Source: Fundicoccus culcitae | GTDB taxonomy: Bacteria; Bacillota; Bacilli; Lactobacillales; Aerococcaceae | Direction of reading: 5' to 3' | Assembly: GCF_024661895.1 (NCBI RefSeq) | Contig: NZ_CP102453.1 | Span: forward strand, 1,984,001-2,048,000 | Length of the DNA stretch: 64,000 nt | Shown here: positions 33,234-62,920 of the stretch, piece after piece | Layout: each line of letters begins with the position of its first letter | Numbering within the stretch: position 1 is the first letter of the stretch | Made by a program: the position numbers and the translations under genes | Notes under the pieces: model-generated | What the model was told of the DNA's origin: nothing | What the model saw: only the letters and a program-made list of their open reading frames with translations | Databases searched by the model: none

Positions 33234-33257
33234 TCATTAAGGAAAGGAACTTTGTTT

Positions 33258-34280
33258 ATGCAAGAGAGTACGACAGTAAGAGCCGAAACAGTTGAAAAAG
33301 CAATTAACATTGCTTTAACCAAATTAAATTTAAGTCGTGATGAAGCTGACGTTAATATCATTAATGAAGGCAAAAAAGGACTTTTTGGTTTTGGAAAACA
33401 AGATGCAATTGTTGAAGTGACTGCCAAAAAAGCTAAAAGTATTGGACAAATAATGGATCTCCTTGAACAGGAAGAGCAGTTATCCAATAAGCCAAATTCA
33501 CCGATGCAAAAAGCAACAGAAGATACACCACCCGCACAGGATGAGCCCGTAAAAGTTGAAAAACCAACTGCGAAACGGGAGCCTAAAGTTGAAACAGTTT
33601 TAGAAGTTGTGGAAGTTCAAGTTACTGAAACAGTCGTTGAAGCGGTAAGTAAACCAAAAGCAGCACCTGTTAAAGTAGAAAAAGTAGCAACAAAGGTGAC
33701 CGAAACACCTATCCCAGCCGCAACCGTTGATGTTGATGAAGAGGATGATGAGGACTATTTTGATGCTGAACCAACCGATGAGAGCCTTGAAAGTCCCGAA
33801 TCAAAAGCACAAAGACGTAAGGAAGCCAATGAAAAAGTAGCCAATTATTTACAAAATGTCATTCGTGAGTATGGTGCCGATGCAGATGTTACAGTTGAGG
33901 ATACAGGTTACCAAGTTATCTTCAATATCGAAACAAGCAAATCAGGTTTAGTTATTGGTAAACATGGTAAAATTATCAATGCCCTTCAAACCCTTGCACA
34001 AATATTATTACATCGTTACAATCGTCGTCGTGTCTCAGTCATCCTAAATGTGGGAGACTATCGCGATCGCCGCGCCAACGTGCTTGAACAAATCGCCGAA
34101 CGCACCGCTAAAGATGTTTTACGTAGCAAACAAGCTGTGATCCTTGATCCGCTACCTGCCTACGAACGCAAACAAATTCATGCCTATCTCAGCAAGGTTG
34201 AACATATCAAAACCCATTCAGAAGGTAAAGACCCCAACCGTTACTTAGTCGTAGAGTACGACAACAAAACAGATTATTAA
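33258..34280 (+). CDS. jag: KH/R3H-domain RNA-binding protein Jag (KhpB/EloR)
   Basis: Jag binds RNA and, in streptococci, affects cell elongation with KhpA and MltG. The ATG at 33258 is used (GGAAAGGAAC upstream) rather than the TTG two codons earlier. The 340 residues comprise the Jag_N domain (about 1-50, with EGKKGLFGFGKQDA), a long acidic and Lys/Val-rich linker (about 65-185), a KH domain (VIGKHGKIINALQTL) and a C-terminal R3H domain (SEGKDPNRYLVVEY end). It ends in a strong terminator. Confidence 0.95.
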   Translation: MQESTTVRAETVEKAINIALTKLNLSRDEADVNIINEGKKGLFGFGKQDAIVEVTAKKAKSIGQIMDLLEQEEQLSNKPNSPMQKATEDTPPAQDEPVKVEKPTAKREPKVETVLEVVEVQVTETVVEAVSKPKAAPVKVEKVATKVTETPIPAATVDVDEEDDEDYFDAEPTDESLESPESKAQRRKEANEKVANYLQNVIREYGADADVTVEDTGYQVIFNIETSKSGLVIGKHGKIINALQTLAQILLHRYNRRRVSVILNVGDYRDRRANVLEQIAERTAKDVLRSKQAVILDPLPAYERKQIHAYLSKVEHIKTHSEGKDPNRYLVVEYDNKTDY

Positions 34281-34344: not shown

Positions 34345-34423
34345 TCTTAATTGGGATCTACCAGCCTGCCAAATGGCGTAAGCAGGAAGTAAATGACCGT
34401 CATTTCTCTTTTATGTGGGCACA

Positions 34424-34505
34424 CACATATTCGGGCAGTTGTTGTGAGCGTGATGGGGAGCGCACACATATTCTGACAGTTGTTGTGTGCGTGAATCTGA
34501 GCGGG
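34424..34505. repeat. Tandem repeat, CACATATTC family, two units of 41 bp
   Basis: CACATATTC recurs at 34424 and 34465 with the same following TTGTTGTG-type arm. The same family returns as three units at 34805-34925. Confidence 0.7.
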
Positions 34506-34537
34506 AATTGTGTGACTGTTAAATAAACGACAAATTA

Positions 34538-34590
34538 GGCTATTCGGTCATGAAATTAGGTATTTGGTGACCGATTAGCTTTATTTAACG
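34538..34590. repeat. TCGGTCA-type inverted-repeat unit
   Basis: ATTCGGTCA is followed about 20 bases later by TGACCGATTAG, a hairpin with a 7-bp core. The same sequence family occurs at 34940-35030 and, 28 kb away, at 62832-62920. Confidence 0.65.
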
Positions 34591-34642
34591 TTCACTCACT
34601 TCCCGATTACTCACAGGTAAGTGGGAAGTGACGGACCGGCTC

Positions 34643-34757
34643 ATTGTCACTCAGATTTTTCCCCATGACAATAAAGCCTTCCATTGTCACTCAGATTTTT
34701 CCTCATGACAATAAAGCCTCCCATTGTCACTCAGATTTTTTCTCATGACAATTAAGG
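34643..34757. repeat. Tandem repeat, ATTGTCA family, three units of 40 bp
   Basis: ATTGTCA starts at 34643, 34683 and 34723, each followed by CTCAG, a T-rich loop and TGACAAT. Each unit is a hairpin with 7-bp arms and a loop of about 17 bases. Confidence 0.85.
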
Positions 34758-34804
34758 AAAGCGGGAAGTGGAGCACCGTCATTTCTCATTTACCGCGAAC
34801 TGGG

Positions 34805-34925
34805 GCGCTCACATATTCTAGTGCTTGTTGTGTGCGCGAACCAGAGCGCTCACATATTCAGGCGCTTGTTGTGTGCGCGAACCGGGGCGCTCACATATTC
34901 GGACGCTTGTTGTGTGCGCGAACGT
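34805..34925. repeat. Tandem repeat, GCGCTCACATATTC family, three units of 41 bp
   Basis: GCGCTCACATATTC starts at 34805, 34846 and 34887; each unit ends with TTGTTGTGTGCGCGAAC, whose TGTGTGCGC pairs imperfectly with the start of the unit. Confidence 0.85.
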
Positions 34926-34939
34926 AAGCGGATGTTAAG

Positions 34940-35030
34940 TAAAGCTAATCGGTCAACAAATGACTGATTTCGTGACTGAATAAAGCTAATCGGTCACGAA
35001 ACATCTGATTTCATGACCAATTAGCTTTAT
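34940..35030. repeat. Tandem repeat, TAATCGGTCA family, two units of 41 bp
   Basis: TAAAGCTAATCGGTCA-like starts lie at 34940 and 34981, and the second unit closes with TGACCAATTAGCTTTA, its near-perfect inverted arm. Confidence 0.7.
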
Positions 35031-35102
35031 CGTAGTCTATTTTACGGTAATATATTTCCTGCTTACGCTCGTTCACTTCCCACTTACCTCACAGGCTTTC
35101 CT

Positions 35103-35207
35103 CTGGCGGTTGAGACTCGCCATCCGCCACTCAGGCTTCCCTCTGGCGGTTGGGAGTTGCCATCCGCCACTCAGACTTTTCTCTGGCGGTTGGGAGTAAG
35201 CGAGAAG
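35103..35207. repeat. Tandem repeat, CTGGCGG family, three units of 40 bp
   Basis: CTGGCGGTT starts at 35103, 35143 and 35183. CCGCCACTCAG follows the first two, so TGGCGG and CCGCCA pair, with CACTCAG shared with the ATTGTCA family. Confidence 0.85.
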
Positions 35208-35305
35208 TGAACGAGCGGTTGTTTGCGATACAGCAATACAATAAAAAGCTGATTCTCTTCGATGAATCATATCAATCTGATATTTTTGCAGAAATCACTA
35301 GTTTA

Positions 35306-35356
35306 AAAGGATTAATCTGGTCACTGCTAACAGCGTAATGACCAGATTAATCCTTT
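35306..35356. repeat. Long perfect hairpin
   Basis: AAAGGATTAATCTGGTCA (35306-35323) and its exact complement (35339-35356) make an 18-bp stem with a 15-base loop. No gene ends nearby and no good T tract follows. Confidence 0.8.
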
Positions 35357-35506
35357 ACCTAATTGTTATTGTGGATTTCCTACATAGGTAGGCCATCATA
35401 GACTGACGATCACTTACTTTCCACTTACAAATGAAGGATAGGTTAGGCGTGCAATCATAAATGGAAATGAAGGGTTGTTTAAAAGAAGTTCTCGCATGAC
35501 AATAAA

Positions 35507-35588
35507 CCTTCCCATTGTCACTCAGAATTCACCCCATGACAATAAGCGCTCCCATTGTCACTCAGAATTTCCCCCATGACAATAAGCC
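35507..35588. repeat. Tandem repeat, ATTGTCA family, second block
   Basis: ATTGTCA at 35514 and 35554 (period 40), each with CTCAGAATT and CATGACAAT arms. It is the same family as at 34643-34757, about 750 bp away. Confidence 0.8.
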
Positions 35589-35724
35589 CCCATTTCCCCA
35601 CACTCCAGAATCTATCGCCCATTTAGTTCGGAATAAACGAACGATAGATTAAGAAATGATTAAAAGATATTAATTTTTACATTAAAATTTGCATTACAAA
35701 CGATTTCACATTACAATGGTCTTA

Positions 35725-35759: not shown

Positions 35760-37292
35760 ATGGCAAATTTTGAGCAAGATGCCAAAGCGCTCTTGGAACA
35801 TATTGGTGGGTCTGATAATATTAGTGCGGTGACGCATTGTGCAACACGTATGCGTTTTGCATTAAAAGATCCAGAAAAAGCAGACATTAAAGCAATTGAA
35901 GCTTTACCCTCTGTTAAAGGTAGTTTTACACAAGCAGGTCAATTTCAGGTCATTATCGGTAACAATGTATCGGAATTTTACAAGGATTTTGCTGCTGTAT
36001 CAGGTGTTAGTCAGTCAAGTAAGTCAGATGTTAAACAAGCGGCCGAGTCAAATCAAGTATGGTGGCAACGTTTAATGACGTTTTTAGCGGAAGTTTTTGC
36101 ACCCATTATTCCTGCAATTATTGTTGGGGGTCTTATATTAGGATTCCGTAATATTTTAGAAGGTGTCGGTTTTTCGGGTTTAGGTCAATTGGTTATTGAT
36201 GGGGTACCACAATTTACAGCTGATGGCGAGCCAATTTATAATACAATCGTTAATGTTAGTCAGTTTTGGAGTGGAGTGAACCATTTCTTATGGTTGCCAG
36301 GTGAAGCAATTTTCCACTTCTTACCTGTAGGTATTACATGGTCAGTTACACGTAAATTAGGTACAACAGAAATCTTAGGTATTGTTTTAGGTATTACCCT
36401 TGTATCACCACAATTATTAAATGCTTATGGTGCTGCAGGTGCTATGGCAGATGGTACGGTACCGCAATGGGATTTTGGTTACTTCCAAATTGATATGATT
36501 GGTTACCAAGCACAAGTATTGCCAGCGATGTTCGCGGGTATTGCCTTATCTTATTTAGAAAGATTCTGGCGTCGTGTCGTTCCAGAAATGTTCTCAATGA
36601 TTTTGGTTCCTTTCCTATCCCTTGTTCCAGCCGTTATTTTAGCGCATACGATTTTAGGTCCAATTGGTTGGTGGTTAGGTAGCATTATTTCTAATGTTGT
36701 TTTAGCTGGTTTAGAAGGACCATTAAGTTGGTTATTTGGTTTCCTATTCGGAGCATTGTACTCTCCATTAGTTATTACAGGTTTACACCATATGACCAAT
36801 GCAATCGACTCACAGTTAATTGCCGATACAGGTTCAACTGGTTTATGGCCAATGATTGCTTTATCAAATATGGCACAAGGTTCAGCCGTTCTAGCTGTTT
36901 GGTGGTTAACCCGTAAAGATGTAGTTGAAACACAAATTACAGTTCCGTCAGCTGTTTCTGCTTTCTTAGGTGTTACAGAACCAGCCATGTTTGGGGTAAC
37001 CTTAAAATATGTGTATCCATTTGTAGCTGCTATGATTGGATCAGGTATTGCAGGATTAATTTCAACAATGGCCAATGTACAAGCTAACTCTATTGGTGTT
37101 GGGGGTCTACCAGGCTTCTTAGTTATTCAAGTTGGTTCACAAGGTTGGTATTGGATTGCGACAGCCGTGGCTATCATTGTTCCATTTGTTTTAACCTTGG
37201 TCTTCCAGCGAACAGGCTTTTTAACGGATGCAGGCTTAAACTTTGATCTTCCGTTCTTTAACAATTCATCCAAAAATACTTCTGAAGCATAA
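35760..37292 (+). CDS. treB: Trehalose-specific PTS transporter, EIIBC
   Basis: The protein imports trehalose and phosphorylates it to trehalose 6-phosphate. The 510 residues comprise an EIIB domain with phospho-cysteine Cys27 (VTHCATRMRF), a linker near 85-105 and a multi-pass EIIC domain carrying the sugar-site motif LGVTEPAMFGV near residue 401. No EIIA domain is attached, so the phosphate donor EIIA must come from elsewhere, as is usual for this group. GGAGG precedes the ATG. Trehalose rather than sucrose specificity is inferred from treC and the TreR operator. Confidence 0.92.
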   Translation: MANFEQDAKALLEHIGGSDNISAVTHCATRMRFALKDPEKADIKAIEALPSVKGSFTQAGQFQVIIGNNVSEFYKDFAAVSGVSQSSKSDVKQAAESNQVWWQRLMTFLAEVFAPIIPAIIVGGLILGFRNILEGVGFSGLGQLVIDGVPQFTADGEPIYNTIVNVSQFWSGVNHFLWLPGEAIFHFLPVGITWSVTRKLGTTEILGIVLGITLVSPQLLNAYGAAGAMADGTVPQWDFGYFQIDMIGYQAQVLPAMFAGIALSYLERFWRRVVPEMFSMILVPFLSLVPAVILAHTILGPIGWWLGSIISNVVLAGLEGPLSWLFGFLFGALYSPLVITGLHHMTNAIDSQLIADTGSTGLWPMIALSNMAQGSAVLAVWWLTRKDVVETQITVPSAVSAFLGVTEPAMFGVTLKYVYPFVAAMIGSGIAGLISTMANVQANSIGVGGLPGFLVIQVGSQGWYWIATAVAIIVPFVLTLVFQRTGFLTDAGLNFDLPFFNNSSKNTSEA

Positions 37293-61935: not shown

Positions 61936-61954
61936 TGAAAGTGGATTTGAATAA

Positions 61955-62050
61955 GCCCGCCAAATGGGAATGTGGTTTGGCGATGAAAGTGGGCGAGCCC
62001 GCCAAATGGGTATATGGTTTGGCGACGTAAGTGGGCGCACCCGCTTAATG
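61955..62050. repeat. Tandem repeat, CCCGCCAAATGG family, period 42 bp
   Basis: GCCCGCCAAATGG at 61955 and 61997, with a diverged third start near 62039. CGCCAAA and TTTGGCG within each unit are complementary. Confidence 0.75.
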
Positions 62051-62081
62051 GAGGAAGATAAGTTCCACTAAGGAAAACTTT

Positions 62082-62160
62082 GATTGGTGGCGAGGAGATA
62101 TGAAACCTTCGCCACCAAATTAAATTGATGGCGAGGGGGTTTATGAGCTTCGCCACCAAA
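62082..62160. repeat. Tandem repeat, TGGCGAG family, two units of 41 bp
   Basis: TGGCGAG at 62088 and 62129, each closed by TTCGCCACC, forming a hairpin with about 8-bp arms. Confidence 0.75.
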
Positions 62161-62232
62161 TAATACTATTCCTGTCACGGAAGTGGATAACAGGTCATTT
62201 GTGATAATTTTAGTCATATATTCTAATTTGCC

Positions 62233-62792
62233 GGACGACAATTTACGCTGACGACCGGCAAGTTCGATTGGTGGCCTTCCCGCAAAAAAGAAAGCCGGCA
62301 AATGCTCGAGATAGCTTAAATTGCACTGAGATTTCAAAAAAGGCGGACGACAATTTACGCTGACGACCGGCAAGTCTATTTGCCGGCCTTCCCGTGAAAA
62401 AGAAAGCCGGCAAGTGCTCGAGATAGCTTAAATTGCACTGAGATTTCAAAAAAGGCGGACGACAATTTACGCTGACGACCGGCAAGTCTATTTGCCGGCC
62501 TTCCCGTGAAAAAGAAAGCCGGCAAGTTCTCGAGATAGCTTAAATTGCACTGAGATTTCAAAAAAGGCGGACGACAATTTACGCTGACGACCGGCAAGTC
62601 TATTTGCCGGCCTTCCCGCAAAAAAGAAAGCCGGCAAATGCTCGAGACAGCTTGATTTGCACTGAGATTTCAAAAAAGGCGGACTGCAATTTACACTGAC
62701 GACCGGCAAATCCGTATGCCGGCCTTCCCTCACAAATGACGACCGGCAAATAGGCGAAACAGCTTGATTTGCACTGACATTTCAGAAAAGCG
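62233..62792. repeat. Five-copy tandem array with exact 112-bp period
   Basis: GGACGACAATTTAC-like starts lie at 62233, 62345, 62457, 62569 and 62681, and a degenerate sixth start (GGACAACAATTTTA) at 62793, all exactly 112 bp apart. Each unit has a CCGGCAA-GTCTAT-TTGCCGG hairpin and a further GCCGGCAAG arm, then CACTGAGATTTC. Unit 1 is variant in its first hairpin and unit 5 is most diverged; units 2-4 are nearly identical. Confidence 0.92.
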
Positions 62793-62831
62793 GGACAACA
62801 ATTTTAGATGAGTTCCGCTAAACGAAGCGTT

Positions 62832-62920
62832 ATTCGGTCACGAAATCAGGCGTTTGCTGACCGATTAGCGTTATTCGGTCACGAAATCAGGCGTTTGCTG
62901 ACCGATTAGTGTTATTCAAA
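62832..62920. repeat. Tandem repeat, ATTCGGTCACG family, two units of 41 bp
   Basis: ATTCGGTCACGAAATCAGG at 62832 and 62873, each followed by TGACCGATTAG, with a truncated third start near 62914. The same family occurs at 34538 and 34940. Confidence 0.85.

Follow-up and report, generated by a model that had tools for sequence, protein, structure and literature searches.

The hairpin arrays described here form the interior of MITE-like, non-autonomous elements, and the inverted ends of these elements match those of a resident IS66 element. The window is the whole 64-kb stretch of DNA analysed (C1:1984001-2048000), from a 3.22-Mb single-contig genome. The reading that we favour, at a probability of roughly 60%, is that the clusters are nests of such IS66-type elements and that their arrays are rows of predicted protein sites in double-stranded DNA, spaced by whole helical turns. 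The clusters are real and genome-wide, and miniature elements of IS66 type and BOX-like build account for part of what is seen.

The region 34378-35594 of the window is filled by four hairpin families and one lone hairpin, with array periods of exactly 40 or 41 bp. A preliminary description, which counted five families including the lone hairpin and reported these periods, was confirmed by Tandem Repeats Finder. Family A (GCGC[T/A]CACA..TGTG[T/A]GCGC) has periods of 41 at 34422-34503 and 34794-34923, as does family B (TCGGTCA..TGACCGA) at 34940-35017. The period is 40 for family C (ATTGTCA..TGACAAT) at 34642-34756 and 35495-35594, and for family D (CCGCC..GGCGG) at 35092-35197. The lone hairpin (35306-35356) has a perfect stem of 18 bp. 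The features are as follows.

33252..34280 (+): upstream neighbour, jag/eloR (NCBIfam NF041568)
34378..34610 (+): element M1, 233 bp, with IS66-type end GTAAGCAGGAAGTAAATGACCGTC, two A units, one B unit and inverted end ..TCACTTCCCGATTAC
34422..34503 (+): A array, 2 units of 41 bp, CACACATATTC..TGTTGTG
34544..34574 (+): single B hairpin, TCGGTCA..TGACCGA, assigned from sequence
34617..34756 (+): border GTAAGTGGGAAGTGACGGACCG, then C array, 3 units of 40 bp, truncated by the next element
34757..35087 (+): element with border AAAGCGGGAAGTGGAGCACCGTC, three A units (41 bp), two B units (41 bp) and double inverted end ..CTTACGCTCGTTCACTTCCCACTTAC
35092..35197 (+): D array, CCGCC..GGCGG, 2.7 units of 40 bp
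35196..35428 (+): element M4, 233 bp, holding the lone 18-bp hairpin, with ends GTAAGCGAGAAGTGAACGAGCGG and ..CACTTACTTTCCACTTAC
35495..35594 (+): C array remnant, 2.5 units of 40 bp
35760..37292 (+): downstream neighbour, trehalose PTS EIIBC (NCBIfam TIGR01992)
61954..62917 (+): second cluster, with G-type (42 bp) and H-type (41 bp) arrays, an N array (112-bp unit) and B hairpins (41 bp)

Because the ends of the type-1 IS66 match the borders, and because elements sit inside hairpin arrays, the first cluster reads as a nest: 34378-34610, 34617-34756 (cut), 34757-35087, the D array, 35196-35428 and the C remnant. The border at 34617 has exactly the sequence of one type-1 IS66 end, and the border at 34757 is close to the other. 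No clean target duplication was seen for the elements in the window, as is common for old nested copies. Several parts of the nest recur in the same genome. M1 has near-full copies in loci L077, L062 and L063, and a 234-bp relative in L077 is flanked by an 8-bp target duplication, CAATGGGG. The element at 34757-35087 has copies in L049 and L056 (96%), M4 occurs again in at least 11 near-full copies (76-85% identity), and the D array gave 40 BLAST matches in an 864-kb sample of the genome. In the second cluster (61954-62917) the array periods are 42, 41, 112 and 41; its 112-bp unit occurs five times at 62232-62804, with GCCGG/CCGGC hairpins at 40- and 72-bp spacing.

Alignment of 215 border sites gave one consensus, GTAAGYGGGAAGTGA..GACCGTC, with family-specific interiors. 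This consensus has 162 matches in the genome, versus none for the reversed pattern, and inward-facing pairs of borders enclose elements 172-1376 bp long. Three bordered elements have perfect 8-bp target duplications (0.1 expected) and two more have duplications matching at 7/8 positions (also 0.1 expected). GTAA ends and target duplications of 8 bp are general features of IS66 elements. Nine IS66 transposase matches of three types occur in this genome. The two type-1 copies (2286 bp, 99.96% identical) have ends GTAAGCGGGAAGTGAAGCACCGTC and GTAAGTGGGAAGTGACGGACCG, and encode TnpC (NCBIfam NF033517, E 4e-99) and TnpB (NF033819). Target duplications are 8 bp for the type-2 copies and 7 bp for the type-1 copies. 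The hairpin arrays themselves are non-coding and have no transposase gene, while an IS66 transposase is resident in the same genome. Within 50 bp of a border lie 76 of 148 arrays, compared to 9.8 under random placement, and six of the nine IS66 copies, along with several small elements, are inside hairpin arrays, judging by their flanks. The elements insert into one another's arrays, and clusters of mixed families therefore arise. What the preliminary description missed is that, in this genome, the arrays do not form a free-standing class of element but are internal to IS66-ended mobile elements. IS66 is a likely driver of these hairpin-bearing miniature elements, and their nesting shows how mixed repeat clusters arise.

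The 864-kb sample, which was picked around border-motif matches and not at random, contains 174 non-coding tandem arrays, located away from long open frames; 148 of them have a period of 40-43, more than expected by chance. Because of the way in which this sample was chosen, we also examined an unselected 400 kb of the same genome. There, 8 of 34 non-coding rows had periods of 40-42, and about 15 of the rest belong to one CRISPR array. The peak is thus seen in unselected DNA too. No rows at 40-42 were found in 400 kb of the relative G089 or in 200 kb of the relative G011. The arrays have roughly 2-9 units, and the 864-kb sample holds some 15-20 stem families with a common geometry. The earlier claim that the stems are unrelated does not hold throughout. 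Families B and T have a common loop, GAAATTAGGTATTT, with stems that differ (TCGGTCA versus TCTGACG) and are both paired. Moreover, B and E have stem positions in common and, by sequence, C and D a loop motif. Rfam gave no match at the gathering score, array DNA had no plasmid matches, and a literature search, with subscription journals mostly outside its reach, returned no description of this element.

Length is held much more tightly than sequence. Adjacent units differ by 30% in their spacers, 15% in their loops and just 4.5% in their arms, and the spacing equals the family value in 303 of 307 cases by gapless unit finding, so that unit length is kept under sequence change. Since the unit finding had been gapless, the length test was repeated from the arms alone, with gap length free. 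Each family again has one dominant inner gap (A 15, B 17, C 16, D 16, E 17, F 15 and G 17 nt) and, likewise, one dominant outer gap. The constraint falls on architecture: length is kept while loops and spacers diverge. This was the central proposal of the preliminary description, and it is borne out in many families, as well as in a second genus.

That genus is represented by G017. A search of 75 other Aerococcaceae genomes found none with the hairpin families or borders of our genome, apart from a single stray match to the border, with 2 mismatches, in G003. In G017 there are two hairpin families, P and Q, unrelated to ours, with 86 matches genome-wide and neighbours 42 or 43 bp apart (42 bp, n=12; 43 bp, n=19; 84 bp, n=1; none at these lengths in the control). 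Loops and spacers differ between neighbouring units at this constant spacing. We looked for IS66-like ends around the G017 arrays and did not find them; G017 has IS66 copies of its own. Because its arrays lack such ends, IS66 carriage is separable from the array architecture. In family Q, arms of about 11 bp enclose a variable core of roughly 8 bp. Tandem modules of 420-423 bp, each with about four family P hairpins, occur in G017 at L276 4804-6656 and L280 6924-7973. G089 and G011 have a few arrays of 51-52 bp; unrelated non-coding arrays of this period, in which inverted repeats are present, were seen at L246 6757-6872, L239 16878-17071 (G089) and L253 10657-10784 (G011). Absence from relatives together with a match to a known mobile repeat had been named beforehand as a refuting outcome. 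This applies in part: the families of our genome are absent from the relatives and part of a mobile repeat, yet G017 has unrelated families at 42/43 bp.

The earlier statement that the period is always 40 or 41 holds for 34378-35594, but 31, 42-43, 51-52, 62 and 72 occur elsewhere. That these values are also allowed points to helical turns rather than to one fixed unit. Most spacings that depart from 41 take the values 31, 51-52, 62 or 72, which lie close to multiples of 10.3 bp, and the spacings as a whole cluster near 3, 4, 5, 6 or 7 helical turns, mostly four. Within families, spacings of 31, 39-42, 51-52, 62, 102 and 122 occur with few between them, and half turns are largely avoided. In family N, 40 alternates with 62 or, in the window, with 72. 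One family U array has nine spacings of 41, whereas a second U array, 4.3 kb away, runs 51/51/51/52/51/52. These U arrays (ATAACTTCRTAT..GTAYGAAGTTAT; 41 bp and 51-52 bp) are at L221 14657-15054 and 19340-19677 (genome ~1574657 and 1579340). One 23-bp hairpin family repeats every 31 bp; two such arrays (TAGTTCGT..ACGAACTA), oppositely oriented and separated by about 5 kb, are at L079 3255-3654 and 8752-9215, and the same type of array is present at L215 2289-2686.

Distances between units of different families show a related pattern. Those between A and B are 61, 71 and 82, and the 61/71 difference looks like one inherited 10-bp deletion. Different-family distances that recur at two or more loci have a peak at 10.5 bp with a phase near zero (R 0.69); the one-sided p is 0.0003 with a period of 10.4 and phase 0 fixed, and 0.015 over a 6-15 bp grid, the idea of phasing having been drawn from the very data used to test it. 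Taking all 68 merged different-family classes, and with them the singletons, leaves a weak signal, with p 0.014 at 10.4 bp and 0.22 for the grid as a whole. The 40-43 spacings may largely be one ancestral class. Phasing by helical turns is likely, resting on few independent events, and the spacing pattern favours DNA helical phasing, with protein on one face, over a role in RNA.

Under the favoured reading, the IS66 transposase would move bordered elements in trans, and recombination between units probably adds and removes copies in the tandem inverted repeats. Each inverted repeat would be recognised as double-stranded DNA, the partner probably being a DNA-binding protein, and the separate families would need different or loosely specific proteins. 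Neighbouring sites would have to face one way to allow side-by-side contact or wrapping. Insertion at divergent promoters would be harmful, which may be why arrays avoid them and are found downstream of genes. Our best guess is that coating of the array keeps the element silent or insulated and that the array gives further IS66 insertions a place to land without harm.

We consider it unlikely that the arrays act instead in transcripts, terminating or stabilising RNA or being processed into small RNAs, with pairing under selection, although several observations could be read in this way. Compensatory changes in families B, E and T (14 double-change cells) give a covariation of 0.285 versus 0.072 in shuffles (0/500), in few sequences whose relatedness may inflate the value, and B and T keep pairing in differing stems around their common loop. 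In G017 family P, by contrast, covariation was not above that of shuffles. Certain arrays out-fold shuffles (z -7 to -8), but a 7-bp stem that closes a loop of 15-17 nt makes a weak RNA hairpin, Rfam offers no match at the gathering score, and the better-folding strand shows no preference by gene orientation (sense 45, antisense 51). Mismatches of the G.T and A.C types are balanced in families B, C, F and H, which speaks for DNA over RNA. An excess of G.T over A.C in families A, G1 and G2, together with the constant choice of better-folding strand within each family, would fit an RNA role; in both counts, the units of one family are not independent. With simple ORF calls and no gene finder, arrays are enriched in gaps between convergent genes (23 of 66 versus 28 of 264; p 1e-5) and rare in divergent ones (3 of 66 versus 81 of 264). 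This placement fits tolerance downstream of genes, and alone is no proof of termination. An RNA role also leaves the exact length of diverging spacers and the 10-bp steps unaccounted for.

These last properties bear equally on the idea that the arrays have no function, which we find about as improbable. In that case, slippage or recombination would produce duplicates that IS66 spreads, the period would reflect common ancestry, and stems would be re-paired by template switching. Several families are homologous, as seen in the B/T loop and B/E stem positions, and tandem copying keeps length. Quasi-palindrome correction is a known bacterial mutational process and could keep stems paired. However, neutral units would be expected to diverge evenly in arms, loops and spacers and to gain indels, and the units observed here do otherwise. 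Nor does this idea predict a near-equal length in unrelated families of another genus, or the use of both 41 and 51-52 by family U. Family U also suggests that the repeats serve a site-specific recombinase as targets or accessory sites, with recombination altering copy number: its arms, ATAACTTCGTAT..TACGAAGTTAT, resemble those of loxP, G017 family Q has arms around a variable core, and synaptic complexes usually use whole-turn spacing. This is very unlikely, given that the 15-17-nt centres of most families exceed a tyrosine recombinase core and that inspection by eye of the open frames separating the two U arrays recognised no recombinase-like gene.

The arrays could represent a novel kind of protein-coated array in chromosomal DNA, in which unrelated inverted repeats are selected at whole turns (3-7) in at least two Aerococcaceae genera, with IS66-ended carriers in one. 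We propose this only tentatively, at somewhat less than even odds.

Several known systems share properties with the arrays. Like CRISPRs, they are regular repeats with hairpin potential, but CRISPR was rejected because the entire unit repeats, without unique spacers. A separate, ordinary CRISPR-like array with the repeat ATTTCAATCCACGCACTCACGAGGAGTGCGAC is present in the same genome at L222 63-7226 (~1670063-1677226). Iterons and partition centromeres are helically spaced, protein-binding repeats. They have in common with our arrays conserved short arms, free spacer sequence and near whole-turn spacing, whereas our arrays are dispersed in the chromosome and borne on transposable elements.

MITEs paired with a resident IS include MITEPsy1 of Pseudomonas syringae (PMC3189936) and MITECca01 of Cardinium (PMC9769881). 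The present elements are likewise short and non-coding, with resident-IS ends and target duplications, although the partner is IS66 and the interior consists of tandem hairpin arrays. REP/BIME and REPIN sequences are clustered extragenic palindromes associated with RAYT transposases (PMC2817692, PMC3116915). Our arrays resemble them in being clustered, regularly spaced extragenic palindromes of about 40 bp, and differ in their many stem families within one genome and in their IS66-type ends. A RAYT/REP origin was rejected, since the genome has no Y1 (RAYT-type, PF01797) transposase.

BOX elements (boxA-boxB(n)-boxC) of Streptococcus pneumoniae and S. suis are modular and non-autonomous, with MITE features and several module families per genome (PMC3049150). 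As in BOX, fixed end modules enclose tandem hairpin modules whose number varies. By description, our elements are set apart by their many hairpin families, IS66-type ends, 8-bp duplications, resident autonomous IS, heavy nesting and near-helical spacing. BOX and REP are usually defined by sequence; here, the conserved property is the spacing, with steps that resemble helical turns.
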